DNA from: Oligoflexia bacterium
GTDB taxonomy: Bacteria > Bdellovibrionota > UBA1018
Direction: 5' to 3'
DNA: 38,511 nucleotides
Assembly: GCA_023700925.1 (NCBI GenBank)
Contig: JAMPXZ010000005.1
Span: forward strand, 1 to 38,511
A program made the position numbers and the translations under genes. A model generated the notes under the pieces. The model was not told the DNA's origin, made no database searches, and saw only the letters and a program-made list of their open reading frames with translations. Below, in pieces: positions 19,383 to 36,826 of this stretch (position 1 is its first letter; every line of letters begins with the position of its first letter).

Positions 19383-19390
19383 GAGTCTCC

Positions 19391-21477: not shown

Positions 21478-21571
21478 GTGTTCGTAGTAGCTGAAAATAA
21501 CGCATTGCGCAATTGCAAAGTCGCGCCTCTTCAGCTTTCCTGCCACCGGAGTAGTGAAACCGGCTGACTCG

Positions 21572-22882
21572 TCAGCGCGTATTGAGCTTCGGGTTGTTCT
21601 CCGACCAAAGCTTCGCGACAAACATCGGGAAGTCGATCGAAGCGTTGCTGTGGAACAGAGCGCCGGCCATGCCGTTGGGGGCGGGGCCGAGCTTTTTCAT
21701 GTCAAAGTGGCCAGTTGAGGCGTTGATGTAGCCTTGCTCAACGAGCCAGCGCACGTCCGGGAAGCCCGGGAAGTCGCCCCTGCTCACCGGGCCTGCCGGC
21801 CAGGCGTGGCGAAGGGTGTCCTGCTCAATGCGAGCAATGCGGATGCGGCCAGCGCTGTCACGCCAGTATTCGGCATAGGCCTTCCAGTCGCGGGGCGTGG
21901 CATCCTTCGGACGGCACTCATGGTAGCTGTCGCCACGGTCTTTTTCGCCACCCGCGCAGCCGATGCCTTTGCCGCTACCCAGAACGACGCCGGTTTCGGC
22001 CTTCTTGACGCCCAAGAGGGTCGCCATCATGTCCGCCGTCATCTTCTGGTAGGGGTAGGGTGCGAACTTGTCGCCGTCCCAGATGTTCTGGTTGATGAAC
22101 TTGTCCGCGGTGACGATACCGTCGACAACGGTGATGTTGCCGGCGGGCAGGCTGTTGTCATCGGAGACGAGCGCGATGACCTGATCTTTCATCGTCGGCT
22201 TGCCGGGGGCGGTTGCCGAGTAATCCCGGCAGACCTTCAGCATGTCGGCGGTCTTGATCGAAGGCGGCATGACGGCGGTGCTTTGATTGGAGCCGATGCC
22301 GGGGGCCGCGGCGAGCGCGACGCCTGAGAAGACGTCGGGTGCCATGCAGGCGACTTCCATCGCCACTGCGCCGCCAGCCGAGATGCCGGCGAGGTAAATC
22401 TGGTTCGGGTCGATCTCGAGTTCGGGATAATCGCTCACGAGCTTCGTGCCCGCGGCGATGATCGATTTGTGGTCCGGGCTGTTGCGGGTGGGCATCGTGA
22501 CCATCGGGTAGCCGCCACCGTAGTTGATGCACTCCATCTGCTTGATGCGCTGATTGGGGAAGACCGGTGCCTGGACATCGGGGACGACAACGACGAGACC
22601 GTAGGCTTCGGCGGCTTTCGGCCAGCCGGCGCTCTGGGCGATCTGGAAGGAGACCTGGTCGCAGCCCATGAGATGAATCACGGCGCCTCTCTTGGCGGGC
22701 ACTTTCTTGGAGAAACCGTTCGGGGTGTAGACCCAGGCGCTTGGGAACCCGGCGAAGTTTTTCTCGTATTTCCAGTTAGTCCCCTTTGCCCAGTCGGTTT
22801 CGGTGGGAATGCTGCCTGCGATGCAGGTCAGGGAAGCCAGGAGGAACGATCCAAAAAGCAAAGTCAGTGTGAGAGCCTTCAC
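21572..22882 (-). CDS. Secreted PHB-depolymerase-family esterase (alpha/beta hydrolase)
   Basis: About 436 aa from a GTG start. A signal peptide (KALTLTLLFGSFLLASLTC) opens the protein. The hydrolase core shows GAVIHLMGCDQ (oxyanion region), LVVVVPDVQ, the nucleophile elbow IYLAGISAGGA (Ser168), and NQNIWDGDKFAPYPY further on. This is the type I extracellular PHB depolymerase/feruloyl-esterase-like family, which hydrolyses polyester or acetyl/feruloyl esters. The GTG has AAAGGA 10 bases upstream; an alternative ATG at 22936 would add 18 residues without a ribosome site. Substrate cannot be predicted. Several Cys in the mature protein fit an extracytoplasmic location. Confidence 0.75.
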   Translation of the reverse strand: MKALTLTLLFGSFLLASLTCIAGSIPTETDWAKGTNWKYEKNFAGFPSAWVYTPNGFSKKVPAKRGAVIHLMGCDQVSFQIAQSAGWPKAAEAYGLVVVVPDVQAPVFPNQRIKQMECINYGGGYPMVTMPTRNSPDHKSIIAAGTKLVSDYPELEIDPNQIYLAGISAGGAVAMEVACMAPDVFSGVALAAAPGIGSNQSTAVMPPSIKTADMLKVCRDYSATAPGKPTMKDQVIALVSDDNSLPAGNITVVDGIVTADKFINQNIWDGDKFAPYPYQKMTADMMATLLGVKKAETGVVLGSGKGIGCAGGEKDRGDSYHECRPKDATPRDWKAYAEYWRDSAGRIRIARIEQDTLRHAWPAGPVSRGDFPGFPDVRWLVEQGYINASTGHFDMKKLGPAPNGMAGALFHSNASIDFPMFVAKLWSENNPKLNTR

Positions 22883-23070
22883 GTCTGCCGGTCCTTTCGA
22901 AAAGAAACGTCTTAATGTGAAGGGGAGATATAGCATAGGTGAATCGTTTTGCCAGATTTGTCTCAATCTTCTCGTTAAAAATCATGAGGCTGGAATGCCG
23001 GGGGGTGGAATTAGCTGTGAGGATCCGCCGGTCTTGACGCGATGCGCCATACGAGCTAAAAAGGTTTCCC

Positions 23071-24036
23071 ATGGTAAGGTCTGCTGCTCTACTCCTCTTG
23101 ATTTCGGCTCTAGTGGCCTCCGTTGCGCCGCCCAGCGCGAGTGCAGCGGAACTTTTCAGTACGCGGTACTCGATGAGCCTCACGAGCTACTTAGGGCTCA
23201 GCACCCAGCGGGTCGAAGAGGCGGCAGAACGCGTCTGGCTTGCTCACCCGAGTCTGCTCAAGCAATGGGAGCTCATCAGCGCGGACGCAAACGCCACCTA
23301 TAATGGAGTCCTCAACACTATCGAAGTGTCGCCAACGCTGACCACTCCGGCAAGCTCACTCTCTTCCGGCAAGCGGCGTCTTAAGTCGGTGCAGGAGCTC
23401 CTTGGCGAGTCCGCCAGCTACGCCGTTTATGCCACGACGGTCTTTCATGAGCTGGCGCACGCGGAGTACGACGTTCTCGTGGAGGAGGGAGCCAGCGCCG
23501 CCGATCGCGAACTTTTTTCGCTGATCGAAAGCGAGCTGCGTCCCTGGTTCGCGAGTCGCTTTCCGATGGTCTCGAGCGAGGTCGCGGTCTCGGAATACTT
23601 TGCGTATTTTCACGGCGCTGTCACTGAGCTGCTTTTTGAGGAACGGCAGCAGCTTCTCTTTTACAACGGGATCGATCCGCTGACGGGCAGATGCCTCCCG
23701 CTGCGATCGCTGCGCGAACGGGCGCGACGGATGCCGCTGCGGGATTTTCAGGAGCTATTCGCTATCGGAGCCGGGGACGACACGCCTTACGCCGAGCGCG
23801 TTCGCGTGGATTACGTTTTCGTGCGTGGCAGGGATCTTGAGCTCTCCATCGGCAAGCCGGGGGGCTTTCGAGAGGAATGGCAGAACGAGTTCTGGCGCCA
23901 CTTCGAGGGATTTTATCAGCCGCCCAGAAACCGTCAGGAGCTTATCCGCGAGCTCCGCAAGGACACCGCGCTCACGGAGCGGGTTGAGGCTTGCCGGACG
24001 GCGCTGTGGAAGGCGCGTAACGGAGGTGCACACTGA
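23071..24036 (+). CDS. Putative secreted HExxH metalloprotease-like protein
   Basis: 321 aa. Signal peptide (MVRSAALLLLISALVASVAP, cleavage near ASAAE). A zinc-site-like helix VFHELAHAEY (H126, E127, H130) is followed 45 residues later by SEYFAYFHG, whose E175 could be the third ligand, a gluzincin-like arrangement. No known peptidase family is recognised from the rest. The ATG at 23071 is preceded by AAAAAGG at good spacing. It is divergent from the esterase gene, with 188 bp between starts. It ends 220 bases before the island's left repeat, so it is the last chromosomal gene on that side. Confidence 0.65.
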   Translation: MVRSAALLLLISALVASVAPPSASAAELFSTRYSMSLTSYLGLSTQRVEEAAERVWLAHPSLLKQWELISADANATYNGVLNTIEVSPTLTTPASSLSSGKRRLKSVQELLGESASYAVYATTVFHELAHAEYDVLVEEGASAADRELFSLIESELRPWFASRFPMVSSEVAVSEYFAYFHGAVTELLFEERQQLLFYNGIDPLTGRCLPLRSLRERARRMPLRDFQELFAIGAGDDTPYAERVRVDYVFVRGRDLELSIGKPGGFREEWQNEFWRHFEGFYQPPRNRQELIRELRKDTALTERVEACRTALWKARNGGAH

Positions 24037-24256
24037 TGCCGAGGGCCGAACTGACTGGCCCGGCAGCGGTGTGCCTCGAAGCCGGAATTGTCGGAAATGA
24101 CTTCCGGGACCGTAGTTGTAGAATTGTCTGCTACTAGTTGCCAGAAGAAGCTGACTGCTTGTGCTTGATTGAAAAAGACGCACCCCACCACGGAGTGAGG
24201 AGAACCGGGGAACCGGGGAACCGGAACCCCTCGTTTTCTCAGCTAAGTGTAGGAAA
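24037..24256. other. Chromosomal spacer left of the island
   Basis: No gene is seen. A small hairpin forms at 24082-24087/24102-24107 (CCGGAA/TTCCGG), 45 bases past the metalloprotease stop. At about 24206-24226 there is a short tandem AACCGGGG repeat. A short open frame running through here into the tRNA fragment is a translation artefact. Confidence 0.5.
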
Positions 24257-24311
24257 TGTTTGGTGGCTGAGGGCGGGATCGAACCGCCGACCTGCGGGTT
24301 ATGAATCCGCC
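24257..24311 (+). repeat. Left attachment-site repeat (tRNA 3' fragment)
   Basis: Identical over 55 bases to 35650-35704. It holds the last 51 bases of the tRNA (including encoded CCA, T-arm, variable region and anticodon arm) on the minus strand, from 24261, plus four bases beyond the CCA. It breaks off inside the 5' side of the anticodon stem, where the sequence continues CACGATCC rather than the tRNA's CGCTCTAACC. It is a remnant, not a functional tRNA. Confidence 0.92.
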
Positions 24312-24423
24312 ACGATCCGTTTTGTAACTTCCGAAAATGTCTGTGTTTTGTGAATAATAACCGAAAGATAAGCCGACTCGGCACTTCGGTCGGATACGGG
24401 GGATTTCGGGCATATTCGGGCGC

Positions 24424-24444
24424 TGGTTGACCCTTCGTTGACCC
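24424..24444 (+). repeat. Left arm-type repeat (two TTGACCC boxes)
   Basis: TGGTTGACCCTTCGTTGACC continues by one C to 24444. The same 21 bases with a single change (C to T) occur at 35564-35584 in the same orientation. Within each copy TTGACCC is repeated with an 11-bp period, about one helical turn, as expected of integrase N-terminal-domain arm sites. It is 113 bases inside the left attachment repeat. Confidence 0.7.
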
Positions 24445-24527
24445 TAGATAGAATATAGGAATCGATGCGTTCGGGAAGCGGGCTGCCCAGTTTGATTCAA
24501 AAAGGACCCTGTTTCACCGCTCGTTAG

Positions 24528-24555
24528 GTCAAGTTTAGTATAGTAAAAACTTGAC
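24528..24555. promoter_or_regulatory. Inverted-repeat operator and promoter of the DUF6088 gene
   Basis: GTCAAGTTT (24528-24536) and AAACTTGAC (24547-24555) are perfect 9-bp arms around a centre that includes TATAGT (24539-24544), a good -10 element. The layout suggests autoregulation by the downstream winged-helix antitoxin-like protein (inference from known AbiEi repressors). No convincing -35 box is visible. Confidence 0.55.
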
Positions 24556-24570
24556 TTTTTGAGCGGAATC

Positions 24571-24591
24571 ACCGACCTTTATAGGGTCGGT
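24571..24591 (+). promoter_or_regulatory. 7-bp inverted repeat just before the DUF6088 start
   Basis: ACCGACC (24571-24577) and GGTCGGT (24585-24591) flank TTTATAG; the right arm ends 2 bases before the ATG at 24594. It could be a second operator half-site pair, or an RNA hairpin that hides the ribosome-binding region. Confidence 0.45.
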
Positions 24592-24593
24592 AA

Positions 24594-25319
24594 ATGACCA
24601 TGAATACCGCCCAGACTGTCCGGAATAAAATCACTGATCAAGGCCCTGATTCACTCTGGTCGTATGCAGACTTTGGCGGGGTGCCTTTTCAAGCTCTAGC
24701 AAAGGCCTTGAGTCGACTCGTTAAAGACGGGCTCATTCAGAGGGTGAGAAAGGGCATATACTATTACCCAAAAAAGACCGCGCTCGGGGCCTCTCAGCCG
24801 AGCGCTTCGGCGCTGCTCGCCAAGGCGATGGTGCGCGGCGGGGATACTCCGGTTTTCTCCGGAGGTACGGCTTCATTTCAAAACCTGGGGCTAACTACGC
24901 AGGTCCCGGCGCAATACACAGTTCTAAGTGGGGCCGCTCCGAGGACCATCCGGATCGGAGGGGTAACGGCGCGGGTCCGACACCGTGAACTTGGCCACCT
25001 GGCGGGCGCGAGCCAACGGGACGTATGGCTTCTGGATGCGATTCGAAATTTGAAACATGTACCGGATTCGACCCCGGCAGACGCACTGGCCAAAGTGATG
25101 AAACAGCTTAAGGCGGGCGCCCAGCCCGTGAAAAAACTCCTCCGTTTTGCCCAAGGCGAGCCGCCCAGAGTCCGAGCGCTTATGGGCGCGATGGCTGAGC
25201 AGATTGGCTATCAAGGCCCGGAGCTTCGGAAGCTTCGCAAGTCGCTTAACCCACTTACAAAATTTTATATCGGAGTCGGCTCGGTGCTTCCCAATGCGCC
25301 GGCTTGGAATATTGTGTAA
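24594..25319 (+). CDS. DUF6088/AbiEi-like winged-helix protein (antitoxin-like, no adjacent toxin)
   Basis: 241 aa. The N-terminal part reads AQTVRNKITDQGPDSLWSYA, then GVPFQALAKALSRLVKDGLI and RKGIYYYPKK, which is the winged-helix/wing pattern of DUF6088/AbiEi-type antitoxins. The second domain (about 65-165) has PSASALLAKAM, the NLGLTTQVPAQYTVLSGAAP block and HRELGHLAG, also typical. In type IV toxin-antitoxin pairs this protein represses its own promoter and counters an AbiEii nucleotidyltransferase. Here the next gene is another regulator 138 bases downstream with its own promoter, so it is solitary or shares the distal toxin. ATG codons at 24594 and 24600 both fit. Confidence 0.72.
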   Translation: MTMNTAQTVRNKITDQGPDSLWSYADFGGVPFQALAKALSRLVKDGLIQRVRKGIYYYPKKTALGASQPSASALLAKAMVRGGDTPVFSGGTASFQNLGLTTQVPAQYTVLSGAAPRTIRIGGVTARVRHRELGHLAGASQRDVWLLDAIRNLKHVPDSTPADALAKVMKQLKAGAQPVKKLLRFAQGEPPRVRALMGAMAEQIGYQGPELRKLRKSLNPLTKFYIGVGSVLPNAPAWNIV

Positions 25320-25417
25320 TCATGCCTTTGCACGAACATCCTGAGTTTGTTGATTTTGTCCGAATCGTGAGTGGCGACCGGGGTGCAAGAATGTAAAGGG
25401 TCAACAGAGAGTAAACC

Positions 25418-25457
25418 ACTATACAAAAAAATTTGTATAGTGTAATATTTTGTATAG
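25418..25457. promoter_or_regulatory. Operator and promoter of the toxin-antitoxin-like pair: three half-sites
   Basis: ACTATACAAA (25418-25427) and TTTGTATAGT (25432-25441) form a perfect 10-bp inverted repeat. A third half-site TTTGTATAG (25449-25457) directly abuts the ATG at 25458. TATAGT at 25436-25441 could be a -10 element, giving an almost leaderless mRNA. Binding of the encoded winged-helix protein here would block both transcription and the start region (inference). Confidence 0.6.
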
Positions 25458-26213
25458 ATGGGGAAAGCTAAAAGATCGAATCTCCTTCCTGAAATAGAGC
25501 CTGCCTTAGTAGACCCCTTTAGCAAGAAAGGAGCACTCGCACTTTTTTGGCTCCTCGCCCGGCGGCCGGCAGCTTCGGAGGGCGGGTTTTCTGTCAACCA
25601 AGCGGCAAGAGAGCTCGGGATTATGCCTTTTACGGTCCATCGCGTGGTACGGACGCTGGAATACGACGGGATTATCCGGGCGCAAGGCATAGCGACCAAA
25701 AAGAGATTTCATTTGGCTGAGCCGAAGGGTCTCATGATCCGTTGGATTCGCCACTACCAAATTCAGCGCAAGAGCAAGCTACATAGGTACGGACTCAGTA
25801 ATCCAAGGGAGTTTTCGTCAAGGCGCCAAGAATTTCTCGGAGCATTTGTCGTTCCGGCTCTTCATACTGCAGCGCAAACGGTCTTCCGCGCCGGTGTCAC
25901 GAATCTTTTGACTACGGAAGGCTATACTGACGGAAAAGGTGCGCTAAAGTTGGCTCGCAAGTTCGGGCTGATTGAGCAGGATAGGGGATATGAAGTGCTC
26001 TTAATTGAGCCCTATTATCTCGAAGTTGTCCGGAGATTCAATAAGGACCGTAGTGACCCGATCTGGAAATCTGCTTTTGCAGTCCTGACGTTTCTGGATC
26101 TTTATCATTTTCCCCTTCGTGGAAGGGAACAAGCAGAAGTGCTGTTTAGGAAGACGCCAGCGCTGAAAACTCTTGGTCCCTGGGCAGAATTTGAGGCCAT
26201 CGAGGTCTTTTGA
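25458..26213 (+). CDS. AbiEi-like winged-helix regulator/antitoxin
   Basis: 251 aa. The N-terminal region contains a helix-turn-helix, SVNQAARELGIMPFTVHRVV (about 47-66), followed by RTLEYDGIIRAQ and a wing. A C-terminal domain (about 120-250) of unknown fold contains LLTTEGYTDGKGALKLARKF. No ribosome site precedes the ATG; instead an operator half-site touches it, so leaderless translation or a weak start is likely. Its stop overlaps the next start by one base (TGATG). Family assignment rests mostly on the coupling to an AbiEii-like nucleotidyltransferase; a different regulator family is possible. Confidence 0.6.
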   Translation: MGKAKRSNLLPEIEPALVDPFSKKGALALFWLLARRPAASEGGFSVNQAARELGIMPFTVHRVVRTLEYDGIIRAQGIATKKRFHLAEPKGLMIRWIRHYQIQRKSKLHRYGLSNPREFSSRRQEFLGAFVVPALHTAAQTVFRAGVTNLLTTEGYTDGKGALKLARKFGLIEQDRGYEVLLIEPYYLEVVRRFNKDRSDPIWKSAFAVLTFLDLYHFPLRGREQAEVLFRKTPALKTLGPWAEFEAIEVF

Positions 26214-27004
26214 TGCCGCAGGCCACGAATGAAATCATAATAGCGGAGTTGGAAAACTTGATTGCACATCTGGAGGAATGGTCGCAGTGTCTCGTCCTCG
26301 GTGGCGGCGTGGCGCTCATTGTTTACGATCAATGCATGGCAGGTGACTCTGCGAGGCCGGTTGGGACCACGGATCTGGATTTTTTGATTCCACGGAGTCC
26401 CGACGTCACGGTCAACACCCAGCCGCTTTCAAGAATTCTGGAAAGCCTGGGGTTTTCCACTCGGCTCAAGAGCTTGGGTAATCCACCTATTGAGTCCTAC
26501 GTGAAGGAAGTTGAAGAAACGGAAATTGAAGTAGAGTTTCTGACGGACGATCGAACGAGAAAGAAAAAGGATTCTACTCAGATTCCGAAAGCGGGCGTTG
26601 TTGCTCAGTCCCTCTCGTATCTTGAAATGAGTCTGAATTCGGCTACGACCGCGAAACTACCGCGCGGGACCACTGTTCGAATAGTGCGTCCCGAGGCTTG
26701 GGTTTTTCATAAAGGTCTGACGTTCACCCGGAGAAAACCGGGCTCCCTCAAAAGCACGAAAGATCTATACGGGATCTGGTTTGTGCTCACGATGCTCGGA
26801 GAGTTTTCAGAGAGGACTTGGGCAGGACTCAAGAATATTCAGTCACAGCAGCCCTCCTCTTGGGAAAAGACGTTCAAAAGCAATCTCAAAGGATGGGTTT
26901 ATGAGGCGACACCAAGGGATTGGGCACAATTGCTATCCCAGGACCCGGAGCAACGTCTGAAGAAGGAAGCGTTCGTCGGAATGGTGGAGAAGCTATCGGA
27001 ATGA
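26213..27004 (+). CDS. AbiEii-like nucleotidyltransferase (putative toxin)
   Basis: 263 aa. The N-terminal half shows CLVLGGGVALIVYDQC followed by RPVGTTDLDFLI: the GG(T/V)AL...R.T.DLDF pattern of AbiEii/MenT-type nucleotidyltransferases, with the two metal-binding Asp in DLD. A third acidic position may be in EIEVEFLTDD. The C-terminal helical part contains WVFHKGLTFTRRKPGSLKSTKDLYGIW, a segment like the K...KDLYD motif of AbiEii proteins, here split by a short basic loop. In known systems such enzymes add nucleotides to tRNA acceptor ends or phosphorylate serine, and the partner represses them. The 1-base overlap with the regulator gene supports a toxin-antitoxin-like pair. A role in plain antibiotic-type nucleotidylation is less likely. 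Confidence 0.65.
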   Translation: MPQATNEIIIAELENLIAHLEEWSQCLVLGGGVALIVYDQCMAGDSARPVGTTDLDFLIPRSPDVTVNTQPLSRILESLGFSTRLKSLGNPPIESYVKEVEETEIEVEFLTDDRTRKKKDSTQIPKAGVVAQSLSYLEMSLNSATTAKLPRGTTVRIVRPEAWVFHKGLTFTRRKPGSLKSTKDLYGIWFVLTMLGEFSERTWAGLKNIQSQQPSSWEKTFKSNLKGWVYEATPRDWAQLLSQDPEQRLKKEAFVGMVEKLSE

Positions 27005-27009
27005 GGGAT

Positions 27010-27050
27010 CCCGCTCGGCTGAAACGCCGGGCGGCGTTAGCTCGAGCGGG
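27010..27050. terminator. Strong hairpin between the two convergent island operons
   Basis: Nested arms: CCCGCTCG (27010-27017) with CGAGCGGG (27043-27050), GCT with AGC, and AACGCC (27023-27028) with GGCGTT (27033-27038), giving 17 pairs with a 2-base and a 1-base bulge and a GGGC loop. It begins 6 bases after the nucleotidyltransferase stop and overlaps the last codons of jetD. No T-tract follows on either strand, so it is termination-like but unproven. Confidence 0.5.
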
Positions 27051-28425
27051 CGTATTCCCCAAGGTCCCGGACCAGTATTCCGGCAAGCTGTTCCTCGAAA
27101 ATAGGACGGTTTGCCTCCCTCATCGCATCTGTCAGCCCGGGTTCCCATGGCGAAAAGGCAGGAGAGCCCGCCAACGGGAGTATCCCTTCCGGCGCAAGTT
27201 CCAGCCCGGTTCGGTAATCCTTTTCTGAAAAACGCCAGACGCTGGAGCCAGGATATCGCGTCAGGAGGTGGCCAACGATCCGGATCCCATTCCAGTCGAA
27301 ATCCGCGCGGACCCTGAACTTTGCGCCGCAGCGGGCGAACAAATCCAATAGATGAAGCGTCGCTGAGGAGGGGATACCTTCGGTGCAGATCATGGGCGGA
27401 CTGACTTTTCCGAGTGCCTCGGCGGCCTCCGTCAGGATGCCAGGATTTTCGCAGATAAAGATCTCCGTCCCGAGCGGTACCTCGATCGGCGATAATGAAA
27501 GCTCCCGGAGCGTGATCCGTCGGGGCTCGCCGATCTCAGCCAGTTCGTTGAGGTGCCGAGCAAGGGGACGCTGGCTAGGCAGAGATGGCCGGAGGCCGAG
27601 CACAAGAACGTCGCATGAAAGGGGATCGCAGGCGACTCCGAAATGGGCCCAGAGGCGGCGGCGGTCGGCTGCGGCGAGCGGGGGCGTTTGCCAGTTCGCG
27701 ATCGCGACGAGCGCACCTTGGACTAGAGTCGCGAAGGGGCGATTGGTATCCAGTGCATGAGGGTCACCTAAAGCTGCGGCTGCGAGGACAGGTAACGTGA
27801 TGATGCTGTCGGCCTGAAGGGCCCCAGGTCCATATTTTTCATGGCGTGAAATACGAATGAGAATATCCAACGTCCCCAGAAGCAGGGCTCGTTCATTCCT
27901 GTCAAGCATATCAGGCATATCAGGCATTTCAGAACCGGAAGCCAGTCGCTTGAGCGTTCCTTTTGCCCGTAAATTTTCAAGCCAGGCCAACAGTCTTTCT
28001 TGGACGTTGTCGGAGCTGGTTGGTGAACCGTCCTGCTGCTCGGGTCGCAGCGCCGCATGTCGTTTTGCCTCTTCCCAAAGCTGATCTTCCCGTTCCGAAT
28101 CCGATCGCTTTTCGGAAGGAATATCGCGGAGGGGGCCGGTCATCGCCTCCAGCAGTTCCGCGAGGCCTGCTCCCAATCGGCTGCTTCGGAGGGCGAGGTC
28201 CAGTCGTTCGATCGAAATACGGATGGGAGGACTGGGAACTGTATCCCATCCATGTAAATTCGCGATGGCCTGGCATTCTGCCGCTGACAGATGGCTAAGC
28301 GTGACCATCTTTGCGGCACCTGGACCGGCGAGCTCCAGTCGCTTCCTCACGGCTGTAAAGAGCCTCCGGTAAACATCACTTTGAAGGTGTTTGAAAGCGG
28401 CCTCATCCATAATCGGTTTAGTCAC
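27037..28425 (-). CDS. jetD: Wadjet type II nuclease subunit JetD (TIGR02679 family)
   Basis: 462 aa. JetD is the Toprim-type nuclease subunit of Wadjet, which cuts circular plasmid DNA that the SMC complex has reeled in. The C-terminal region (about 320-400) carries the metal-site pattern: FICENPGILTEAA with E326, then RVRADFDWNGIRIVGHLL with D375 and D377. The N-terminal two-thirds is a helical, TIGR02679-like arm. The GTG start at 28425 gives an 8-base overlap with jetC; an ATG at 28410 is an alternative. It is the last gene of jetABCD. All the expected acidic residues are present, so the protein looks active. Confidence 0.85.
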   Translation of the reverse strand: MTKPIMDEAAFKHLQSDVYRRLFTAVRKRLELAGPGAAKMVTLSHLSAAECQAIANLHGWDTVPSPPIRISIERLDLALRSSRLGAGLAELLEAMTGPLRDIPSEKRSDSEREDQLWEEAKRHAALRPEQQDGSPTSSDNVQERLLAWLENLRAKGTLKRLASGSEMPDMPDMLDRNERALLLGTLDILIRISRHEKYGPGALQADSIITLPVLAAAALGDPHALDTNRPFATLVQGALVAIANWQTPPLAAADRRRLWAHFGVACDPLSCDVLVLGLRPSLPSQRPLARHLNELAEIGEPRRITLRELSLSPIEVPLGTEIFICENPGILTEAAEALGKVSPPMICTEGIPSSATLHLLDLFARCGAKFRVRADFDWNGIRIVGHLLTRYPGSSVWRFSEKDYRTGLELAPEGILPLAGSPAFSPWEPGLTDAMREANRPIFEEQLAGILVRDLGEYARSS

Positions 28426-31400
28426 CCATGTCTCTCATGGATTTTCCGTCCCAAAGGAACCATTCCGCCAAAACGCCCCGCAGTCCCGTCTCCCGGGAGA
28501 GGTGATAAGTCGACAGTCCGTCCAGTTCGGCGTAAAAACCCCATTCCTCATAGGAAGTCATCACGAAATCGAGGTCGAATTCGGAAAGGATCGTCATCAA
28601 TTGGCCCCGGATCGTCGGATCGATTCCGGCAAAGGCCTCATCGAGCAAAATCAACCTTGGGGACGAAGGGGAGGCGGATTCAAAAAATGCGGCAGCGGCG
28701 GCAAATAACGGAAGATGCAGCATGACGGCCTTCTTGCCGCCCGAGCCCTCACCGTGACGTTTTCGTGTGAGTAACTTCCAGGGGGTCCCCGAATCTTTAT
28801 ACTCGATCTTGAATTCGAACCAGCTTCGGTAGTCGAGGGTTTTCATCATGCGTTCATGATAGCTTCCGGAACCGTCGCTAAGGCGTGCTTCCTCAAGTCT
28901 TTGTGCCAGAAACCCGCGCAGTCCGCTCCGCTCGGAGTCCGATAAGAGATGGCCTGCCCGGAGCAGAAGACGGATCACTTGCTCGGTCTCCCGAGGGGCG
29001 CTTTCGGTGACCTCCCATTGGAGCCGGACCAATGACCCCGATGCTGTAGGACATTTCAGAAGGACAGCGTTCATTCGGTCGATCAAGTGCCTGGCTTCAC
29101 GGACCCGGGCCCGTAGGTGCTCATGCGTTTCACCCGAGAGGAATGATTCGAAAACCTGGCGCTCGTCGTCGGCCAAGAGACGATCCCGGATTTTGATTTC
29201 CGCCCCGAGCTCGGCGATCAAGCGCGATAAATTCATGATCTGCCCGTTGTAGCCTGCCATGTATATGAGCACGTCGCCGGTTCTCTCGGCTGTCAGGCGG
29301 ACGTCGCCCGCGAATTCGCGAAGAAGGTCCTGGTGCTGCTGGTTCACTCGGTTTTCAAATTTTTCTCGTTCCTCGGGGCTTCCGGTCAGTGATGAATCCG
29401 AGCCGGCAGCCACGGCTCGGGCGGCGTGCAGTGTTTCCGTCAATGTCCAACTCTTCGAGTCCAAGTTGGGGCTTTCCGTCTCGGCACAAGCCGCGCTGAG
29501 TCCGGCTTCATCCAGCAAGGCCGCGGCAGCGAAGGCGCGGAACCTCTGGGCCGTCTCTTGCCGCAGGGAATCCTGCTGTTCAACCGCCGCTTCCGCATTG
29601 CGGCACTCCGACAAGGCCGCGCCGAAATCCTGCTCCGCTTGGGTGATTTCCCCGCGGGCTTTGACGAGGTTTTCATTGCAGGATCTCCTTTCGCTTTCAA
29701 GGGACTGCATTCTTCTGAGCAGCGCCTTCGGATCCGCTCCGAGGCTGGCGCTGAGCGACTCCGCTTGAATCTTGAGTTTCAGCGCGTTCTCCGATGAGGC
29801 CAAATGTTCGGCGCTGGTCTCGTCAAACCGAAATAGGGCAAGCGCGGTGGCCTTTTGAAAGTCCTGCAGCCTTCTTTTTGCGTGTTCCACGGAATAGGCG
29901 CATTGGATCAGATCCCTGAAGGCGCTTTCGTAACTCTGATGTTTTTCACGCAATTCGGCGAGTCGGTCGCCCCACTCCAATAAACCCGTCCGCACCAGCG
30001 TTTCATCGTACCGCGCTTCTTGCTGATGATACTCCGTTGCGGCTTCCGCCGCCGCGAACTCGGCCTCGGCCAAGGCGGCTTGGGCTTCGGCGAGGTTGCG
30101 GGTTTCGGCCTCGACTGTCGCTCTGAGTTCTTGAACCGGCACAAGCGAAGGGAATTGTTCCTGCTCAGCGAGCAGCGCTCTGGTTCGGGTGCGGTTCTCT
30201 TCGATGGCTTTGAACGCGAGTTCTCTCCTGGAACGCAGATCCCTGATCAAGAGGTTCAGCGCCTGTATTCGCTCCCGTCGCACCCGTTCTCGCGACGCTG
30301 CGCCCAGGAATTCAGGATGCTCCTTTTGATAAAATCCATGAAGCGGGCCTGCCTGGAAAGAACCGTCGTCGGAAATCCAAAACGGAGCTACGGCATCGAG
30401 GGCATTTGCTATCCCGCCCCTGCGATACCCGATGCTGGATAGAATCTTCTTAATCACCGTGGCTGCAATCGGCGTATCCGCATCCACGACGGGAATCAGA
30501 ACGTCAGCTAGGGTGGGCGTGCCGTTCGGAAGTGGGGCTGATTCAAGAAGCAAGTCAAATCCCTGAGGCGGCATGAACCGGCCATCAGAGGTCACTCTGG
30601 CGTCGAGCAGCCCGGCTGCTTGGATGGCCCCTTCGATTTTCCCCTGCGTATTTTCGTCGATTCCCGGCGCGAATTCACAAAGAAGGTAGAATGAACGAGA
30701 ATCTTCTCTCGGAGATCTTGGCGTCCTCCATGCGGCCAAGTCCGGTCTTTTATGGGAATCCGCTTCAAGCGCATTGCGCTCTCGTTCATGGATCTCGATC
30801 GAGGCGTCGAGCTCTTTCTTTCCCACGGTCAGGAGGCTGAGTTGCTCGACGAGCTCGGAGCGGAGCTCGGCTGCCGCCTGATCGACAAACTGCTTCATCC
30901 TGTCCACGGGCAACGAAAGCAGCTCTTCCGCTAATTGAGGCGAGAAAACAAGAGCATGGGAGGACTCCAGCCACGTTGAAACCGCCGATCCAAACGCCTC
31001 GACCGCCCGTTCGAGCTCGCCTTCCCGCGAGCGAAGTCGCTCCATTCTTTCGTCCACGACATTTGCAGCAGTGGCGCGGCGATCCTCCATTCGGCGCATC
31101 TTGTCCCGAGAGGTCGTGACCAACTTGTGTTCTTGGTCTGCCTCAGTGATCGCGCGACGGCGTTCCGAGAGGATTCCCTCGCCGGTGCCTCTCGCGGCCT
31201 GTGTAGCACCCTCTGAGAGTTGGCGGGAGATACTGGCCTGAGGGCCGTGCAGTCCCGCCTCGCGGGCCGCGGCTTCGGTTCTTCGATCCTGGGTCGTAAA
31301 TATTTGTTGAGTTCCTTTGACTTCGTTTACAGCGGCCTCTTCCCGAGAGCGCGCGTGCTGCAGTTCGGTGCGATCGCGATCCGCTTTCGCGCGTACGCGG

Positions 31401-32515
31401 TTCTCATTCCGCAGGGATTCTTCGGCCAGCTGCCGCAAACGATCCAACTGTTGAATCGCCTCGTATTCGCGGGAGGCCTTGATTCCTTCGATCTGCTGAT
31501 CCAGTTCCAAGTCGAGAGATTGTTGGGAGGTGATCCGTTCCGAGAGGGTAGCGCGCTTTTGATCTGCCTCCGTAATCCTTCCCTGTGCTTCACGCAAGAG
31601 ACCTCGGCGCTTCTGATATTCACTTTCAGACTGGGTGATCTCTGACGCCCTGGCTTTGGCGACAGAGTGGAGATATTTCCGATAGACCTTGAGAAAGGTT
31701 TCGAGGGCGGCGCTGGTCTGACCCAATTGGTTGCGTTCCTCGCGAAGTCGATCCAAGCGCTCAAAACCCTCGGCCAGACGCCCGATGGTTTCTGGATTCA
31801 GAGGCGGGAGACTCACTGACAACACCCGAGACAGCTCCGGAAGGTCAAGTCGCTTGGACAGCTGAGGACGGCGGAGTTCGAGCAAGGCTTCGATCAATGC
31901 ACAGTATTGCTCTTCCGCCATTCCGAATAAAAAGCTGTTCACTTCGCGCCGATAGTCGGCACTTCTCTCGAAGACGTGCCCTTTCCCCTGAAAGACGTCG
32001 CCGAGCCTCGAAGGCGTGATCGGGATCCGGTCATTCCCCAACGGGTTCCAGTCCTGATCGACACGCAGCGGTGTGATGAAGTACCGTGCGTCCACTCCTG
32101 GGGTTCCCCTTTTGGCCCTCAATCCGGCGCCGATCGTGCAGAACTCCGATGCATTGCCATTCTTGCGTCCAAATTCGATCCAGAGATACCCGATATTGAC
32201 GTTTACCTCCGGGTTTTGGTCATTGATCAGGTTCCAATACATCGGGCGGGACGTCGATCCGAAGGGGTCAAGCCGTTGGGGTGAAAGATCGGCATCGAGC
32301 AGAAAGGGAAGCAGTACCTCGAGTGCTTTCGACTTTCCGGATTCGTTTCGCCCGCGAAGTAGAAGCCGACCGTGGTGGAAGACGAATCGCTGGTCATCGT
32401 ATTCCCAAATGTTCTGGAGGCCGGCGCGGAGAAGCTGCCACCGGTCTTTGCTCGGGGTTGGAAGAGACGTCCTCGCATCAGTTGGTGTAGAACCGAGAAG
32501 ATTGGGCTCGTTCAA
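28418..32515 (-). CDS. jetC: Wadjet type II SMC-like ATPase JetC (TIGR02680 family)
   Basis: About 1365 aa. It is the MukB-like motor that loads on DNA and extrudes loops. Walker A is GRNESGKSKALEVLLP at about 55-70, then FLLDADLSPQRLDPFGSTSR. A long coiled coil rich in Glu/Arg/Gln follows (about 300-560 and 760-1100), interrupted by a hinge-like globular region. The C-terminal head has the signature-type GSGGKKAVMLHLPLF and Walker B LILLDEAFAGIDP with D1292/E1293. The start is most likely the TTG at 32515: it overlaps the jetB stop as TTGA, is preceded by AGAGGAG 5 bases upstream, and the longer open frame lies inside jetB. Neither head motif is damaged. Confidence 0.88.
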   Translation of the reverse strand: MNEPNLLGSTPTDARTSLPTPSKDRWQLLRAGLQNIWEYDDQRFVFHHGRLLLRGRNESGKSKALEVLLPFLLDADLSPQRLDPFGSTSRPMYWNLINDQNPEVNVNIGYLWIEFGRKNGNASEFCTIGAGLRAKRGTPGVDARYFITPLRVDQDWNPLGNDRIPITPSRLGDVFQGKGHVFERSADYRREVNSFLFGMAEEQYCALIEALLELRRPQLSKRLDLPELSRVLSVSLPPLNPETIGRLAEGFERLDRLREERNQLGQTSAALETFLKVYRKYLHSVAKARASEITQSESEYQKRRGLLREAQGRITEADQKRATLSERITSQQSLDLELDQQIEGIKASREYEAIQQLDRLRQLAEESLRNENRVRAKADRDRTELQHARSREEAAVNEVKGTQQIFTTQDRRTEAAAREAGLHGPQASISRQLSEGATQAARGTGEGILSERRRAITEADQEHKLVTTSRDKMRRMEDRRATAANVVDERMERLRSREGELERAVEAFGSAVSTWLESSHALVFSPQLAEELLSLPVDRMKQFVDQAAAELRSELVEQLSLLTVGKKELDASIEIHERERNALEADSHKRPDLAAWRTPRSPREDSRSFYLLCEFAPGIDENTQGKIEGAIQAAGLLDARVTSDGRFMPPQGFDLLLESAPLPNGTPTLADVLIPVVDADTPIAATVIKKILSSIGYRRGGIANALDAVAPFWISDDGSFQAGPLHGFYQKEHPEFLGAASRERVRRERIQALNLLIRDLRSRRELAFKAIEENRTRTRALLAEQEQFPSLVPVQELRATVEAETRNLAEAQAALAEAEFAAAEAATEYHQQEARYDETLVRTGLLEWGDRLAELREKHQSYESAFRDLIQCAYSVEHAKRRLQDFQKATALALFRFDETSAEHLASSENALKLKIQAESLSASLGADPKALLRRMQSLESERRSCNENLVKARGEITQAEQDFGAALSECRNAEAAVEQQDSLRQETAQRFRAFAAAALLDEAGLSAACAETESPNLDSKSWTLTETLHAARAVAAGSDSSLTGSPEEREKFENRVNQQHQDLLREFAGDVRLTAERTGDVLIYMAGYNGQIMNLSRLIAELGAEIKIRDRLLADDERQVFESFLSGETHEHLRARVREARHLIDRMNAVLLKCPTASGSLVRLQWEVTESAPRETEQVIRLLLRAGHLLSDSERSGLRGFLAQRLEEARLSDGSGSYHERMMKTLDYRSWFEFKIEYKDSGTPWKLLTRKRHGEGSGGKKAVMLHLPLFAAAAAFFESASPSSPRLILLDEAFAGIDPTIRGQLMTILSEFDLDFVMTSYEEWGFYAELDGLSTYHLSRETGLRGVLAEWFLWDGKSMRDMGD

Positions 32516-33762
32516 AATAACTCCTCTTGGCGTGTCCTTTTGGATTGTCTGCGTTCGGGCTCCTGCGGAGCGTAGCGGGCGATCGCGGGAAGCGCTTGCC
32601 AGCAACCTCCATCGATGGGGCGAACCAGGTTGAATGCCCAAAGAATGTCGAGTGCTTCGGTGACCAGGCGTTTGGATCCTTCGGAGGAGATGGTGTACTC
32701 TTGGCTCCATCCGCAGGATTTTCCAAAGCGTTTTAGGAGTCCATCCATCCAAAGGGAGATCTGCGCATGCGCAATCGGGCTTCCGTCGCTTTTTGCCGCT
32801 TTACTGATCCGCTCGGCCAAAAGCAGTGCGGCGTGCTTTATCGTCGAGCCGCCTTCTGGAAACGGGGTATCCGTGAGATGTCCGGTGGGGTCTGCCGGCA
32901 GGAGTCCTTCTTTCCGTCGCTCGACCTGAAGTCCAATGTCCGATTCGAGCAGGCGGTAAACCGTGCCGCGCGCGTGATCCAACCATTCCCATTGCTCGGG
33001 CGTGAGTTCCTCGTAATACAATACGGGCTCATCGACTAGCCGTCTCAATACGGAATGCCGAGCCTTGAGCTTTCTGCCCTCCTCGGTTTCGGCGTAGTTT
33101 TCTTGCGAGAGCATTTCGGGCATTCCGGCAAGGACCGGCGGCAGGGCCGAGGAGAGGAGACTGGCGATCAAAGAATGATTGATGTCAAACAGCGCGTTTC
33201 CATCGCGGGATTGGATGTATCTATCCGCATCGCCATCGCGGAGGACCAGCACAGCGTTCTCGAGCAGCCAGCGGAGGGCGTCCACGAAGGCCCTGCGTTC
33301 GGGCCCTGTCGTGGAATCGAAGGCGTCGATTTCCTTCATTCCGCGGGTGATCAGCTCCAACTGTTCCGCCAAAATCTGAAGAGTGGTTTGGTTATGCTCC
33401 CTGTCCAGGATGGAAAGCAGCAGGCACAGGAAGACATACCGGCGACGGCTTAAAGGCGCCTTGCCTGGGAGAGAGGCCGGATGCGAGGAGTTTACTCGCG
33501 CAGGGATTTTGAAGAGGCGCGCGACACCAGCTCGAGGGTCAATTTTGAGCCTCCATCCGAGCCAGGAAGCAAACCATTCCGTCAGCCAAAGGCGGTGACG
33601 GACGAGCAGCCGGAACGTTTCGGGATCCTGATGCATCACGATCAGCGGTCGGAGCAAGAGGGCACGTAATCCGAGTTGTTTTTCGGATCGTTCGGAGGCG
33701 CCGAATTGGCTCTCGTTCTGCGCGTTGGAGTCACCCGGTTCATGGAGGTTAGGGAGCGACAT
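32512..33762 (-). CDS. jetB: Wadjet type II accessory subunit JetB (TIGR02678 family)
   Basis: 416 aa. JetB is the MukE/KITE-type winged-helix subunit that binds the kleisin JetA. Recognised from its place between jetA and jetC and from family-type blocks: QLGLRALLLRPLIVMHQDPE, FKIPARV, RRRYVFLCLLLSILDR, EQLELIT, and ENYAETEEGRKLKARHSVLR. The start is the ATG at 33762 with GAGG 6 bases upstream, giving a 14-base overlap with jetA; a longer frame from 33816 lies wholly in jetA. It ends in the TTGA overlap with jetC. Confidence 0.85.
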   Translation of the reverse strand: MSLPNLHEPGDSNAQNESQFGASERSEKQLGLRALLLRPLIVMHQDPETFRLLVRHRLWLTEWFASWLGWRLKIDPRAGVARLFKIPARVNSSHPASLPGKAPLSRRRYVFLCLLLSILDREHNQTTLQILAEQLELITRGMKEIDAFDSTTGPERRAFVDALRWLLENAVLVLRDGDADRYIQSRDGNALFDINHSLIASLLSSALPPVLAGMPEMLSQENYAETEEGRKLKARHSVLRRLVDEPVLYYEELTPEQWEWLDHARGTVYRLLESDIGLQVERRKEGLLPADPTGHLTDTPFPEGGSTIKHAALLLAERISKAAKSDGSPIAHAQISLWMDGLLKRFGKSCGWSQEYTISSEGSKRLVTEALDILWAFNLVRPIDGGCWQALPAIARYAPQEPERRQSKRTRQEELF

Positions 33763-35437
33763 GCGTGGCCTCGAGGGCGTGCCGATCACGTGAGAGCGAG
33801 GTCGGTTGCAATTCAATTTCGTAATCCGGGCAATGGAGCAGGCCCCTCGGAGTGAAAATGGCCGCTCTCATCCCTTCTACTGTTCCTGCGTCCGCTGGGA
33901 GAAAAAGTTTTACCCAGTATCCGGCATCGGAGGTTCTGGCGATTCGCAGGTTCTCAGGCGTTCGAGGTGCTCTCAGCACGGCATCCAAGAGGGACAGCAA
34001 GGCTTCGAACTCTTCAAGCGAGATTTCCGCGAGATTCGCGATGCGGAACTTTCCTCGCCGGGCCAGAGATTCCAGCGCAGCCTCTCGAAGCTGCCGCTCT
34101 CGTCGACGATTCGTGAGGAGAAGGGCCTTGGCGTTACCGTGGTCTGGGACCGCCGAAGGGCGGCCTGCAACCGAGGCCTTTCCACGGGTCCCTAGCCGGA
34201 CGGGAATGAGAACGGGAGGAGTTTCCCACCAAGAGGCCCCCGGAGGCGTGATTTCACTATCCTCTTCGACCAGGTGAAAATGTCGCGAAGCATACAGGCC
34301 GAAGGCCATTTGCCAGAGAGCATGAGCGTCCCTGTCGTCAGCCAAAACGGAAAACCAGGAGGCGAGCATTCGGAAGTCCGCGGCACGATCGATGGCTTGA
34401 GTGCGAAGCTCGTTCACGCGGCTCAAAGCACGAGTCAGTGCGACCACTGAATCTACGGCGACTTTGGCGAGTCGCTCGACTGTTGCCCCATCGGTTCCCT
34501 CTTCCGGGATGAACCAGCGCTTGATGCCATTCCATTTCGCGATTCGGGCATGTCTCCAGCGCTCCAAGGATCCGTCGGCACCGAAGTCAGGCGGCACATC
34601 CGCCGACTCGGACGCCCGTTGGACAATCTGTCCGATCCCCGTTGAGGAGACCGAAGCGATTTCCGTGGCGATTTCTTCCGTATTCTGGCGAAGTTGGTCA
34701 ACGAAGCGGCTGATGTAATCGAGAATCGCCTGTTTCCGAAAGAAGAATCTTTCTTCGAGCTCATCTCCGGCCACGTTCAAAGCCTCAGTTTGGGAGGTGA
34801 GTTCTCCGATGAAATGGTTCGCCTCTTCGGTAAGCGTGTCGAACGCCGAGAAGAGGTCATGAAGCAGTATCAAATAGGTGTCCGGCGCGGAGTCCGGGTT
34901 CAGTGCTTCGTTCCCGATTCTGCGAAGGGTTTCGAGGATCTTTCGCAGCATGGAAGACTGGAGCGAGCCAGTGGAACCCAGGGTCGCTTCGACTTCTAGT
35001 ACCGCGCGATGCGCTGCTTCTCCCATGGGGGTCAAGTGGTAGATGAACCGTTTGCGGCTGAAGTCCTCCACGCGGTTGACCGCAGCGGTATCGTGCGCGT
35101 GCTGAAGGTTTCCCCAACTGACGAGTGCCTCGAGAAGGCGACTTAATTTTTCGGGGTTTTCAAAGGCATCCAGGTCTTCCGTTGCGAGTTCATATTTCCG
35201 TTCGCCGATCGCTTTTTGAATCTCTGTCGGCCGCATTTCGATCACGTATTGCTGTTTGGCCTCGTAAAAAATCTGCATGATGGCCCGATAAGAGGGTGCG
35301 TTGGGAGCCGTAACATAGGAGAAAACCGGCACTTGATTGAGAATGCGTGACACAGGTTTCTTGTAGCCCTCTCGGTAAAGGCATTCCACCGTTTTTTGAG
35401 TAGCCGAGGCCTCCGCTCGCGAACTGTCCTGAGCCAT
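33749..35437 (-). CDS. jetA: Wadjet type II kleisin-like subunit JetA (TIGR02677 family)
   Basis: 562 aa. JetA is the MukF-like kleisin that closes the JetC ring. The N-terminal part contains PVFSYVTAPNAPSYRAIMQI and FYEAKQQYVIEMRPTEI, the TIGR02677-type opening, followed by a winged-helix-like region and FIYHLTPMGEAAHRAV. The C-terminal region has ASWFSVLADDRDAHALWQMA, FGLYASRHFHLV and SWWETPPVLIPVRLGTRGK, also family-typical. The ATG at 35437 opens the operon. No strong ribosome site is visible. It overlaps jetB by 14 bases, so all four subunits come from one mRNA in fixed order. Confidence 0.86.
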   Translation of the reverse strand: MAQDSSRAEASATQKTVECLYREGYKKPVSRILNQVPVFSYVTAPNAPSYRAIMQIFYEAKQQYVIEMRPTEIQKAIGERKYELATEDLDAFENPEKLSRLLEALVSWGNLQHAHDTAAVNRVEDFSRKRFIYHLTPMGEAAHRAVLEVEATLGSTGSLQSSMLRKILETLRRIGNEALNPDSAPDTYLILLHDLFSAFDTLTEEANHFIGELTSQTEALNVAGDELEERFFFRKQAILDYISRFVDQLRQNTEEIATEIASVSSTGIGQIVQRASESADVPPDFGADGSLERWRHARIAKWNGIKRWFIPEEGTDGATVERLAKVAVDSVVALTRALSRVNELRTQAIDRAADFRMLASWFSVLADDRDAHALWQMAFGLYASRHFHLVEEDSEITPPGASWWETPPVLIPVRLGTRGKASVAGRPSAVPDHGNAKALLLTNRRRERQLREAALESLARRGKFRIANLAEISLEEFEALLSLLDAVLRAPRTPENLRIARTSDAGYWVKLFLPADAGTVEGMRAAIFTPRGLLHCPDYEIELQPTSLSRDRHALEATHVAP

Positions 35438-35649
35438 GCCGAACTCAAGTGTGACCTGCGGGCCATTGGCTGTTCAAATGTGCCCCAGAAACGGGGATGG
35501 GAAAAATTTTAGAAACGCTTTCAGACGGTTAAAAATGCGGCGACCTGCGGGCTTGCGAGGTTGTGGTTGACCCTTTGTTGACCCCTAAATAAAAAAACGA
35601 CCTAAAAAATATTTTGAAAGTCATCTTATATTACTGATTTTAAAGGATT
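35438..35649 (-). promoter_or_regulatory. Upstream region of jetABCD (AT-rich end of the island)
   Basis: No gene is seen. The part next to the right attachment repeat (35585-35649) is strongly AT-rich, with A- and T-runs that could be an UP-type or H-NS-type region. The arm repeat lies at 35564-35584. At 35541-35551 CGACCTGCGGG copies 11 bases of the tRNA/attachment repeat. The jetABCD promoter must be in this interval, but no confident -35/-10 pair is called. Confidence 0.45.
35564..35584 (+). repeat. Right arm-type repeat (two TTGACCC boxes)
   Basis: This 21-bp stretch differs from the left copy at 24424-24444 by one base and has the same orientation and the same 11-bp TTGACCC period. It is 65 bases inside the right attachment repeat. 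Such paired boxes flanking a tRNA att core are what P and P' arm sites of a tyrosine integrase look like; no integrase is present to test it. Confidence 0.7.
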
Positions 35650-35704
35650 TGTTTGGTGGCTGAGGGCGGGATCGAACCGCCGACCTGCGGGTTATGAATC
35701 CGCC
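35650..35704 (+). repeat. Right attachment-site repeat, inside the intact tRNA
   Basis: This is the second copy of the perfect 55-bp repeat (first at 24257-24311). It covers the 3' 51 bases of the tRNA gene plus four bases past its CCA end. Because the tRNA is complete on this side, integration kept the gene functional. Confidence 0.92.
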
Positions 35705-35730
35705 GCTCTAACCATCTGAGCTACCCAGCC
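35654..35730 (-). tRNA. tRNA with CAT anticodon, probably elongator tRNA-Met
   Basis: 77 bases with encoded CCA. The acceptor stem GGCTGGG/CTCAGCC is paired with one G-U; the D-arm TAGCTCAG...GAGC and the T-loop TTCGATC are canonical. The anticodon loop TTCATAA has anticodon CAT (35694-35696 on the complement). The stem is not the GGG/CCC type of initiator tRNA. The fourth acceptor pair is U-A, as in tRNA-Met, rather than the C-G that TilS prefers in tRNA-Ile2, so Met is favoured. It is the insertion target of the island. Confidence 0.9.
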
Positions 35731-35833
35731 AGCCAAAAGGAGAGGACTGTCATAACCCTGAAATGAAAAGGGATCAATCAAGTTTTTGAGGCGGGCTTGC
35801 GCTGGCGGTCCGAGGTGTGAAAGAGTTCCCCGG

Positions 35834-36826
35834 ATGCGAAGCTATCCGAAGCCGGGCCCGGTCGGGGGCCGGCTGATCCGCGAAGTGATTGGGCTGCTGA
35901 GGGCTGAAAAGATGCCTCTCCCTTTGAATGCCGGCGTAGATTCGCATATCCTCATCGCGCTTTCCGGAGGGGCCGACTCACTGGCCCTGGCTCTTTTGCT
36001 CGCAAAATACGGCCGGCGAGTGGTGGACCGGAAAAAAATCCGGCTTCTCCACGTGAATCATGGCTGGCGCGGCAAGGAATCGGACGCCGACGAAGCCTTC
36101 GTCCGGGACTTTGCCAAGCGTCTGAAGCTGAGGCTCGATGTCGTCCGTCTCGATCCGCCGTCGGCCAATGGAGGCGAGTCGTGGGAGGACTTGGCGCGCC
36201 AGGAACGAAAGAAGATCTTCGCCACCCGAGCGGCCAAGGGCGGCCGTCTCGTCCTTACTGCGCATCAGGCGGACGATCTGGCGGAGACCGTACTGTGGCG
36301 GCTGCTGACGGGAGCGAGCGACACCCATGGCGGGGGCATTGCCGTGAGGCATGGGGTGGAGCTGCGGCCTTTGTTGCGGGTTCGCAAAGAGGCGCTCCGA
36401 GAGTTTCTGCTCGAAGAGGCGCAGCCCTGGCGAGAGGACGCGACCAATCGCGACCCGAGGTTCCAACGGGCTCGGATGCGTCTGGAGCTTATGCCGGTCC
36501 TGGAGGCGCTTTTTCCGAGGTCGGTGGAGCACCTCGTGGCGTTGGCCTTTCGCGCTCAACAAAGGGACGGCGCCGGCACCTCGGAGACAGTCCCGCCGGG
36601 CGAGTGGCAAGAGACACTCGGGGCGCTCTTTGGTTCAGCCGGCCTTAAGCCGCGCCGGGCTCACTGGGAGTGGGCCGCCGCGGCATCGGGCCTGAGCGCA
36701 AGCAAGCGCGCAGAGCTTCACCTTCCGCAGGGCTGGAAACTCATTCGCGAAGCGCAGCGCAACGGCGCCCGGGAGAGCTGGCGATTAGAGCGTGATAAGC
36801 CGTTGGAATGCCAACGAAAAAGTTAA
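35834..36826 (+). CDS. tilS: tRNA(Ile)-lysidine synthetase
   Basis: 330 aa. It ligates lysine to C34 of the CAT-anticodon tRNA-Ile2 with ATP, changing its identity from Met to Ile. The PP-loop HILIALSGGADSLALALLLA (SGGADS at 44-49) is diagnostic, followed by LLHVNHGWRGKESDADE and LTAHQADDLAETVLWRLLTG, then PLLRVRKEALREFL and the EDATNRDPRFQRARMR motif. The protein is short compared with E. coli TilS (about 430 aa), lacking most of the C-terminal domain, as in some other lineages. The ATG at 35834 is the first good start; the TTG at 35786 lacks a ribosome site. ftsH follows, a common pairing. Confidence 0.92.
   Translation: MRSYPKPGPVGGRLIREVIGLLRAEKMPLPLNAGVDSHILIALSGGADSLALALLLAKYGRRVVDRKKIRLLHVNHGWRGKESDADEAFVRDFAKRLKLRLDVVRLDPPSANGGESWEDLARQERKKIFATRAAKGGRLVLTAHQADDLAETVLWRLLTGASDTHGGGIAVRHGVELRPLLRVRKEALREFLLEEAQPWREDATNRDPRFQRARMRLELMPVLEALFPRSVEHLVALAFRAQQRDGAGTSETVPPGEWQETLGALFGSAGLKPRRAHWEWAAAASGLSASKRAELHLPQGWKLIREAQRNGARESWRLERDKPLECQRKS

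Follow-up and report, generated by a model that had tools for sequence, protein, structure and literature searches.

An integrase-less type II Wadjet island in a tRNA-Met gene, probably a cis-mobilizable-like member of a Bdellovibrionota element family

Introduction

The DNA analysed here (the window) is a stretch of 38,511 nucleotides of contig JAMPXZ010000005.1 from an Oligoflexia bacterium of the Bdellovibrionota (assembly GCA_023700925.1; 3.35 Mb, 262 contigs, 88.6% complete). It contains an 11.4-kb island that is inserted in a tRNA-Met(CAT) gene, bears a complete type II Wadjet operon and has no integrase. We conclude that this island is probably an integrase-less member of a family of Bdellovibrionota elements that target tRNA-Met, and that it resembles a cis-mobilizable element (CIME), which is defined as an element that lost the genes for integration and transfer and kept attL and attR (PMC5704250). 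Islands in tRNA genes with defence cargo, type II Wadjet and CIMEs are all known kinds. What is new, as far as our searches go, is the tRNA-Met integrase family of Bdellovibrionota with its arm repeats of 11-bp pitch, a member of this family without integrase, and a type II Wadjet system found in no other of 369 species of the phylum. Other genomes and loci are designated below by our G and L numbers.

Results

Boundaries of the island and its locus in relatives

The island is bracketed by a perfect 55-bp direct repeat (24257-24311 and 35650-35704; Table 1), identical at 55 of 55 positions and 97% identical over 61 bp. The repeat comprises nucleotides 27-77 of tRNA-Met and 4 nucleotides of the 3' flank, so that the duplication begins in the anticodon stem. 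The copy at 24257 is a partial tRNA positioned 3' of the tRNA-Met gene, which itself is intact. A first-pass annotation, made from the letters of the window, had described this duplication of the tRNA 3' end around 11.4 kb and had ascribed it to a tyrosine integrase. The duplication is confirmed, and its origin is supported by the cognate integrase family with such ends that we identified in other genomes. The G+C content is 0.560 in the island and 0.606 and 0.619 in the flanks.

In most relatives, tRNA-Met adjoins tilS. In G001, the nearest relative, which belongs to the same genus, both sides of the locus are conserved at 63-84% identity (tilS and its neighbour on one, an M3 peptidase gene and further genes on the other), and the tRNA-Met is identical over 77 nt without any second copy. 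G001 thus has the tRNA-Met/tilS locus without the island, as an empty tRNA site. The tRNA and the peptidase gene are 5.4 kb apart in G001 and 18.2 kb apart in the window; of the latter distance, 6.8 kb lies outside the island and is not common to both. Among the loci of 16 relatives that were read, a second copy of the tRNA 3' part was found nearby in G020 only, with further partial copies in G035 and G023. No relative without the island carried both 55-bp copies at the same distance, and the island genes were not syntenic in all relatives.

As a side observation, the 6.8-kb segment from the M3 peptidase gene to the distal repeat (17428-24256; a lyase gene, an esterase-like gene and others) was missing from this locus in G001 and in the other relatives read, and the spot beside tRNA-Met is variable beyond the island. 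At the contig edge, positions 1-101 are a truncated 5S rRNA, indicating that the contig breaks at a rRNA operon.

The type II Wadjet operon

The four Wadjet genes are adjacent on one strand in the order jetA-jetB-jetC-jetD from the tRNA inwards and constitute one operon. Completeness of the system, which had been claimed before any profile search, was confirmed by a hidden Markov model check in which all four products exceeded the curated NCBIfam cut-offs (Table 1). The likely start of jetC is a TTG at 32515, with the open frame extending to 32752. JetC retains intact Walker A (GRNESGKS) and Walker B (LILLDEA) motifs, and its closest solved relative is PDB 9qe0, in which the chain is named JetC; no solved-structure relative was found for JetD. 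The genes, their order and the cut-offs passed are those of known type II Wadjet (JetABCD, TIGR02677-02680), whereas this operon is borne by a small tRNA island without integrase and shows 26-35% identity to its plasmid-borne relatives.

Within Bdellovibrionota, JetA2 was found in 1 of 369 species, namely in this genome. Searching 143 genomes for JetC gave nothing beyond the window apart from one weak match to the ATPase end in G049, and neither JetC in phages nor JetA in viral contigs was found. In a plasmid collection, 20 records carried JetA2, 14 of them from Streptomyces. These records are large (at least 376 kb in 18 of 20; 149 and 73 kb in the others), in line with reports that large or linear DNA escapes Wadjet.

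Arm repeats and the tRNA-Met integrase family

Shortly inward of each core repeat stands a further set of direct repeats with an 11-bp pitch, GTTGACCCTTCGTTGACCC at 24426 and GTTGACCCTTTGTTGACCC at 35566. Their common arm motif is GTTGACCCTTNGTTGACCC. Judging from position, pitch and conservation, these arm repeats are putative arm-type binding sites of the tRNA-Met integrase family. The island thus appears to have its own attachment and arm sites, as the first-pass annotation held, with the core repeat and arm-like repeats at both ends.

With at most one mismatch, the arm motif was present in only 2 of 192 genomes, the window genome and G112 (Bdellovibrio sp. UBA4095; Bdellovibrionota at NCBI). 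In G112 it lies between tRNA-Met and the gene for a 393-aa tyrosine integrase (Phage_integrase, E=7e-27), behind which an HTH_17 protein is encoded; a second contig of G112 carries a 47-bp copy of the tRNA 3' end and then three tandem arm units 120 bp inside. G192, a metagenome-assembled genome (MAG) labelled Proteobacteria, has the same tRNA-Met, the same arms and a 67% identical integrase. Relatives of this integrase, 42-51% identical to it, are spread over the phylum. At 14 loci, both the integrase and its tRNA were readable: the tRNA is tRNA-Met at 11 of them, tRNA-Sec at one and tRNA-Gly at two, which are more distant. At every one of the 14, the best direct repeat in the interval from integrase to tRNA shows a pitch of exactly 11 bp and lies 44-95 nt from the tRNA. 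In the general layout of the family, the integrase gene is situated between the tRNA-side arms and the cargo, beside a gene for a small helix-turn-helix (HTH) protein, and the ends are copies of the 3' part of tRNA-Met. The island arms at both ends follow the orientation and spacing of this integrase family.

The conserved block between the distal core and the distal arm repeats (112 nt) provides another link to the family. It aligned with the same stretch of G035 (z=16), G020 (z=7.4) and G072 (z=5.0), and in each case 0 of 1000 shuffles reached the score. The distal block of G112 has no similarity to that of the window (z -0.3), so that the closest element by arm motif (G112) differs from the closest ones by distal block (G035, G020 and G072).

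The cargo of the sister elements is also informative. In G072 (L134 8812-18008), an integrase, an HTH protein, Gabija GajA and GajB and a HerA-like protein are encoded within 9.1 kb, bounded by a 42-bp tRNA duplication, and type III restriction genes lie near the integrase gene in G079 (L137 2024-11913). The 3.5-kb element of G020 (L042 117-3733) has a broken integrase gene, an HTH_17 protein gene, and an HTH gene followed by a nucleotidyltransferase-like gene. Defence and HTH-nucleotidyltransferase cargo therefore recurs in the family. Coupling-protein, Replic_Relax or TraG-type proteins are encoded in G112, G156, G168 and G192, and some family elements are therefore conjugative or mobilizable. 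Possible HTH and nucleotidyltransferase-like genes were also noticed in G035 (L148 522-3352).

Taken together, the island has in common with these elements (G112, G192, G072, G079, G020 and others) the tRNA target, the 3' duplication and the 11-bp-pitch arms, with G035, G020 and G072 also the distal-arm block, and likewise the defence or HTH-nucleotidyltransferase cargo. It differs from the sisters, which have beside their tRNA an HTH_17 protein and an integrase, the latter broken in G020, and none of which carries Wadjet. A limited literature search did not find a description of the signature of this family.

The 19-mer arm motif by itself was rejected for marking the family across all genomes, since we estimate that about 15 matches would occur by chance in a collection of this size, and several hits, beside tRNA-Glu or tRNA-Asp, accompany unrelated integrases. 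In MAGs with the label Flavobacteriales or Proteobacteria, the 11-bp-pitch motif GTTGACCC adjoins a tRNA-Glu or tRNA-Asp (L073 at 165 and 5458, L078 at 5007, L091 at 3858 and L072 at 3273), and the integrases there are hardly related to the tRNA-Met family, suggesting convergence or a more general arm design. The 19-mer also occurs in five IMG/VR contigs (L093-L097), with a similar half-site layout in L094, L095 and L097; no integrase of the tRNA-Met family was found in these five contigs.

Absence of integrase and mobility genes

A search of all reading frames of the window with the cognate-family profile, with filters off, found no integrase at E<=1. The earlier observation that the island has no integrase or recombinase is thus confirmed, and there is no remnant either. 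The five Phage_integrase proteins of the same genome were considered as helpers and rejected, since the best of them is only distantly related (E of 4e-23 with the cognate-family profile, compared with less than 1e-80 for family members) and does not have these arms. Domain scans of the island cargo found no relaxase and no type IV secretion system domain. The island therefore lacks what marks an integrative and mobilizable element (IME) or an integrative and conjugative element (ICE), namely an own integrase and relaxase or conjugation genes. Only one island protein had a PHROG match, which was weak and of unknown function. The reading as a phage satellite of the phage-inducible chromosomal island type was dropped, as there are no satellite genes and no own integrase.

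Between the tRNA-side arms and the cargo, where the sister elements keep their integrase gene, the island has jetA. The sister integrases face the tRNA, whereas jetA starts about 127 bp behind the arms and reads away from the tRNA in the tRNA's direction. No promoter or terminator was recognised between tRNA-Met and jetA.

Other cargo of the island

The remaining three genes are all on the plus strand, with the AbiEi-like gene nearest to the distal end and the winged-HTH gene overlapping the nucleotidyltransferase gene. The AbiEi-like protein scored 21 bits against an NCBIfam AbiEi cut-off of 150 bits, and the nucleotidyltransferase (PF12281) is encoded two genes away. The winged-HTH and NTP_transf_8 genes were found as a two-gene module in five other genomes of the phylum (L159-L163), without the AbiEi-like gene in the stretches fetched. 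In one of them (G003, L163), the nucleotidyltransferase matches over the first 93 residues only and has a stop inside. The pair may be an addiction module, as its families suggest. The first-pass annotation had taken the island to hold only defence-type genes; this stands for Wadjet, and the other three genes are probable cases, toxin-antitoxin-like by family.

This arrangement recalls MosAT of SXT, a precedent for a toxin-antitoxin pair that retains an integrated element (PMC2654960), and the AbiE type IV toxin-antitoxin systems. There is likewise an overlapping pair with a nucleotidyltransferase on an integrated element, and an AbiEi-like gene is nearby. On the other hand, the island nucleotidyltransferase belongs to PF12281, its HTH partner is not recognised as AbiEi, and its role as a toxin is putative. 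No solved-structure relatives were found for the winged-HTH and AbiEi-like proteins, and the structures modelled from single sequences for the winged-HTH protein and the nucleotidyltransferase were of unusable quality (pLDDT, the predicted local distance difference test, 44 and 34). A promoter-like site directed towards the AbiEi-like gene (24427-24454, 10 of 12 matches) overlaps the distal arm repeats, and integrase binding there could affect expression of this gene.

Table 1. Features of the island and its tilS-side flank (positions in the window)
Feature	Position	Strand	Basis
Distal core repeat, displaced tRNA 3' part (nt 27-77 + 4 nt)	24257..24311	-	Repeat comparison
Conserved distal-arm block between core and arm repeats	24312..24425	+	Alignment with G035, G020 and G072
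Distal arm repeats, two 8-mers, 11-bp pitch, 115 nt inside the distal core (putative binding sites)	24426..24444	+	114-122 nt in other elements
DUF6088 / AbiEi-like protein	24594..25319	+	Pfam PF19570 3e-16; PADLOC AbiEi 2e-42
Winged-HTH protein, likely antitoxin or regulator of the next gene	25458..26213	+	Weak HTH matches
NTP_transf_8 nucleotidyltransferase, likely toxin	26210..27004	+	PF12281 1.3e-19; start overlaps the preceding stop
jetD (JetD2, nuclease subunit)	27037..28425	-	TIGR02679 248 bits, cut-off 196; PADLOC JetD2
jetC (JetC2, SMC-like ATPase)	28418..32515	-	TIGR02680 829 bits, cut-off 462.85; PADLOC JetC2
jetB (JetB2, DUF2398)	32512..33816	-	TIGR02678 229 bits, cut-off 124.65; PADLOC JetB2
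jetA (JetA2, DUF2397)	33749..35437	-	TIGR02677 318 bits, cut-off 165.85; PADLOC JetA2
tRNA-side arm repeats, two 8-mers, 11-bp pitch, starting 70 nt past the tRNA 3' end (putative binding sites)	35566..35584	+	Motif and pitch shared with integrase-bearing elements
tRNA-proximal core repeat (attL side)	35650..35704	-	55 bp identical to 24257-24311
tRNA-Met(CAT), intact, integration target	35654..35730	-	ARAGORN; Rfam RF00005; adjoins tilS in relatives too
tilS, chromosomal flank outside the island, anchor for finding the locus in relatives	35786..36826	+	TIGR02432

Discussion

Our results assign the island, with fair probability, to the tRNA-Met element family of Bdellovibrionota as a CIME-like member without integrase. 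As in the CIMEs described (PMC5704250), attL and attR are kept, integration and transfer genes are absent, and the ends are related to those of complete, integrase-bearing ICE- or IME-like elements. The differences are that neither accretion nor co-transfer with an ICE was seen here, that the assembly holds no helper, and that the cargo is defence and the host belongs to Bdellovibrionota. The first-pass annotation had called the island satellite-like. No feature of a phage satellite was seen, and CIME is the established name for this state. In this scheme, the island would have been inserted by a family integrase supplied by a related element, either in trans or by an ICE that stood in tandem and was subsequently lost. 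Its intact ends would keep it a possible substrate if a related integrase-bearing element enters the cell, and it could also move in tandem with such an element.

Several points weigh against this assignment. The exact junction of the empty site could not be observed, as the 6.8 kb on the far side of the distal repeat is not common to the window and G001. No integrase of the tRNA-Met family was found in the island's own assembly, though about 11% of the genome is missing from it, and no junction of an excised circle was found in viral contigs, the only place searched. Mobilisation in trans, as the annotation had proposed, is a possibility, and a stranded relic agrees with the data nearly as well. 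Wadjet should also attack the island's own excised 11.4-kb circle. Finally, both the movement of the island and integrase binding to the arms are putative.

A second explanation is that the island is a stranded relic, which arrived with its own integrase, lost it later by a clean deletion and is now fixed in place, its ends persisting owing to a recent insertion or to selection on the tRNA. Loss of the integrase has parallels in the family, as the integrase of the G020 element, a sister at the same tRNA-Met, is broken, and the tRNA-Met integrase gene of G191 (L138 1292-4507) is split by a DDE transposase gene (1994-3508), which is another route of integrase loss. The absence of a cognate integrase from the assembly and the punishment of excision by Wadjet would also suit a relic. 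Nevertheless, there is no integrase remnant at all, and the 55-bp identical core, both arm pairs and the distal block are intact, while tRNA function needs none of these. With these ends preserved and no remnant left, we lean, though not strongly, towards helper-type insertion, and we regard a relic as possible but on the unlikely side.

Two further explanations are less likely. An assembly artefact, in which the island and the chromosome are different molecules or organisms joined at the 55-bp tRNA repeat, might be suspected in a metagenome-type assembly of 262 contigs, with both junctions exactly at the repeat and Wadjet absent from all relatives. Such an artefact needs two independent joins, a 55-bp repeat is shorter than the longest words of the usual assemblers, and next to the repeat stand the arms and distal block that tRNA-Met elements of this phylum have, as real integration predicts; we consider it very improbable. 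Duplication of the tRNA gene or homologous recombination without integrase would suit an island without recombinase, but is hardly credible since the duplicated part is the 3' part only, from the anticodon stem, and family-specific arms stand at both ends in the right place and orientation.

A CIME-like island that carries Wadjet raises a question of its own. Wadjet cuts circular DNA below about 50-100 kb, as established mostly for type I systems (PMC10586767). Judging from its protein families, JetABCD of the island would extrude loops of small circular DNA, which JetD would cleave, and would thereby protect the host and the occupied site against plasmids that enter and against elements in their circular intermediate form. 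The jetABCD operon starts 216 bp behind tRNA-Met in the same direction, and it is conceivable, if rather improbable, that its defence depends on integration, being transcribed from the tRNA and made only in the chromosome, so that the island's own circle is spared. If so, the island would be a territorial element, which destroys rival tRNA-Met circles, guards its attachment site and travels only with a helper.

An island in a tRNA gene must circularise to move, and Wadjet cuts small circles. An 11.4-kb Wadjet island without integrase therefore makes the conflict between defence and mobility directly testable. Moreover, the signature described here, namely arms of 11-bp pitch by tRNA-Met and a conserved distal block, marks a family of defence-carrying elements in Bdellovibrionota, whose integrase-less members can be searched for by their ends alone.

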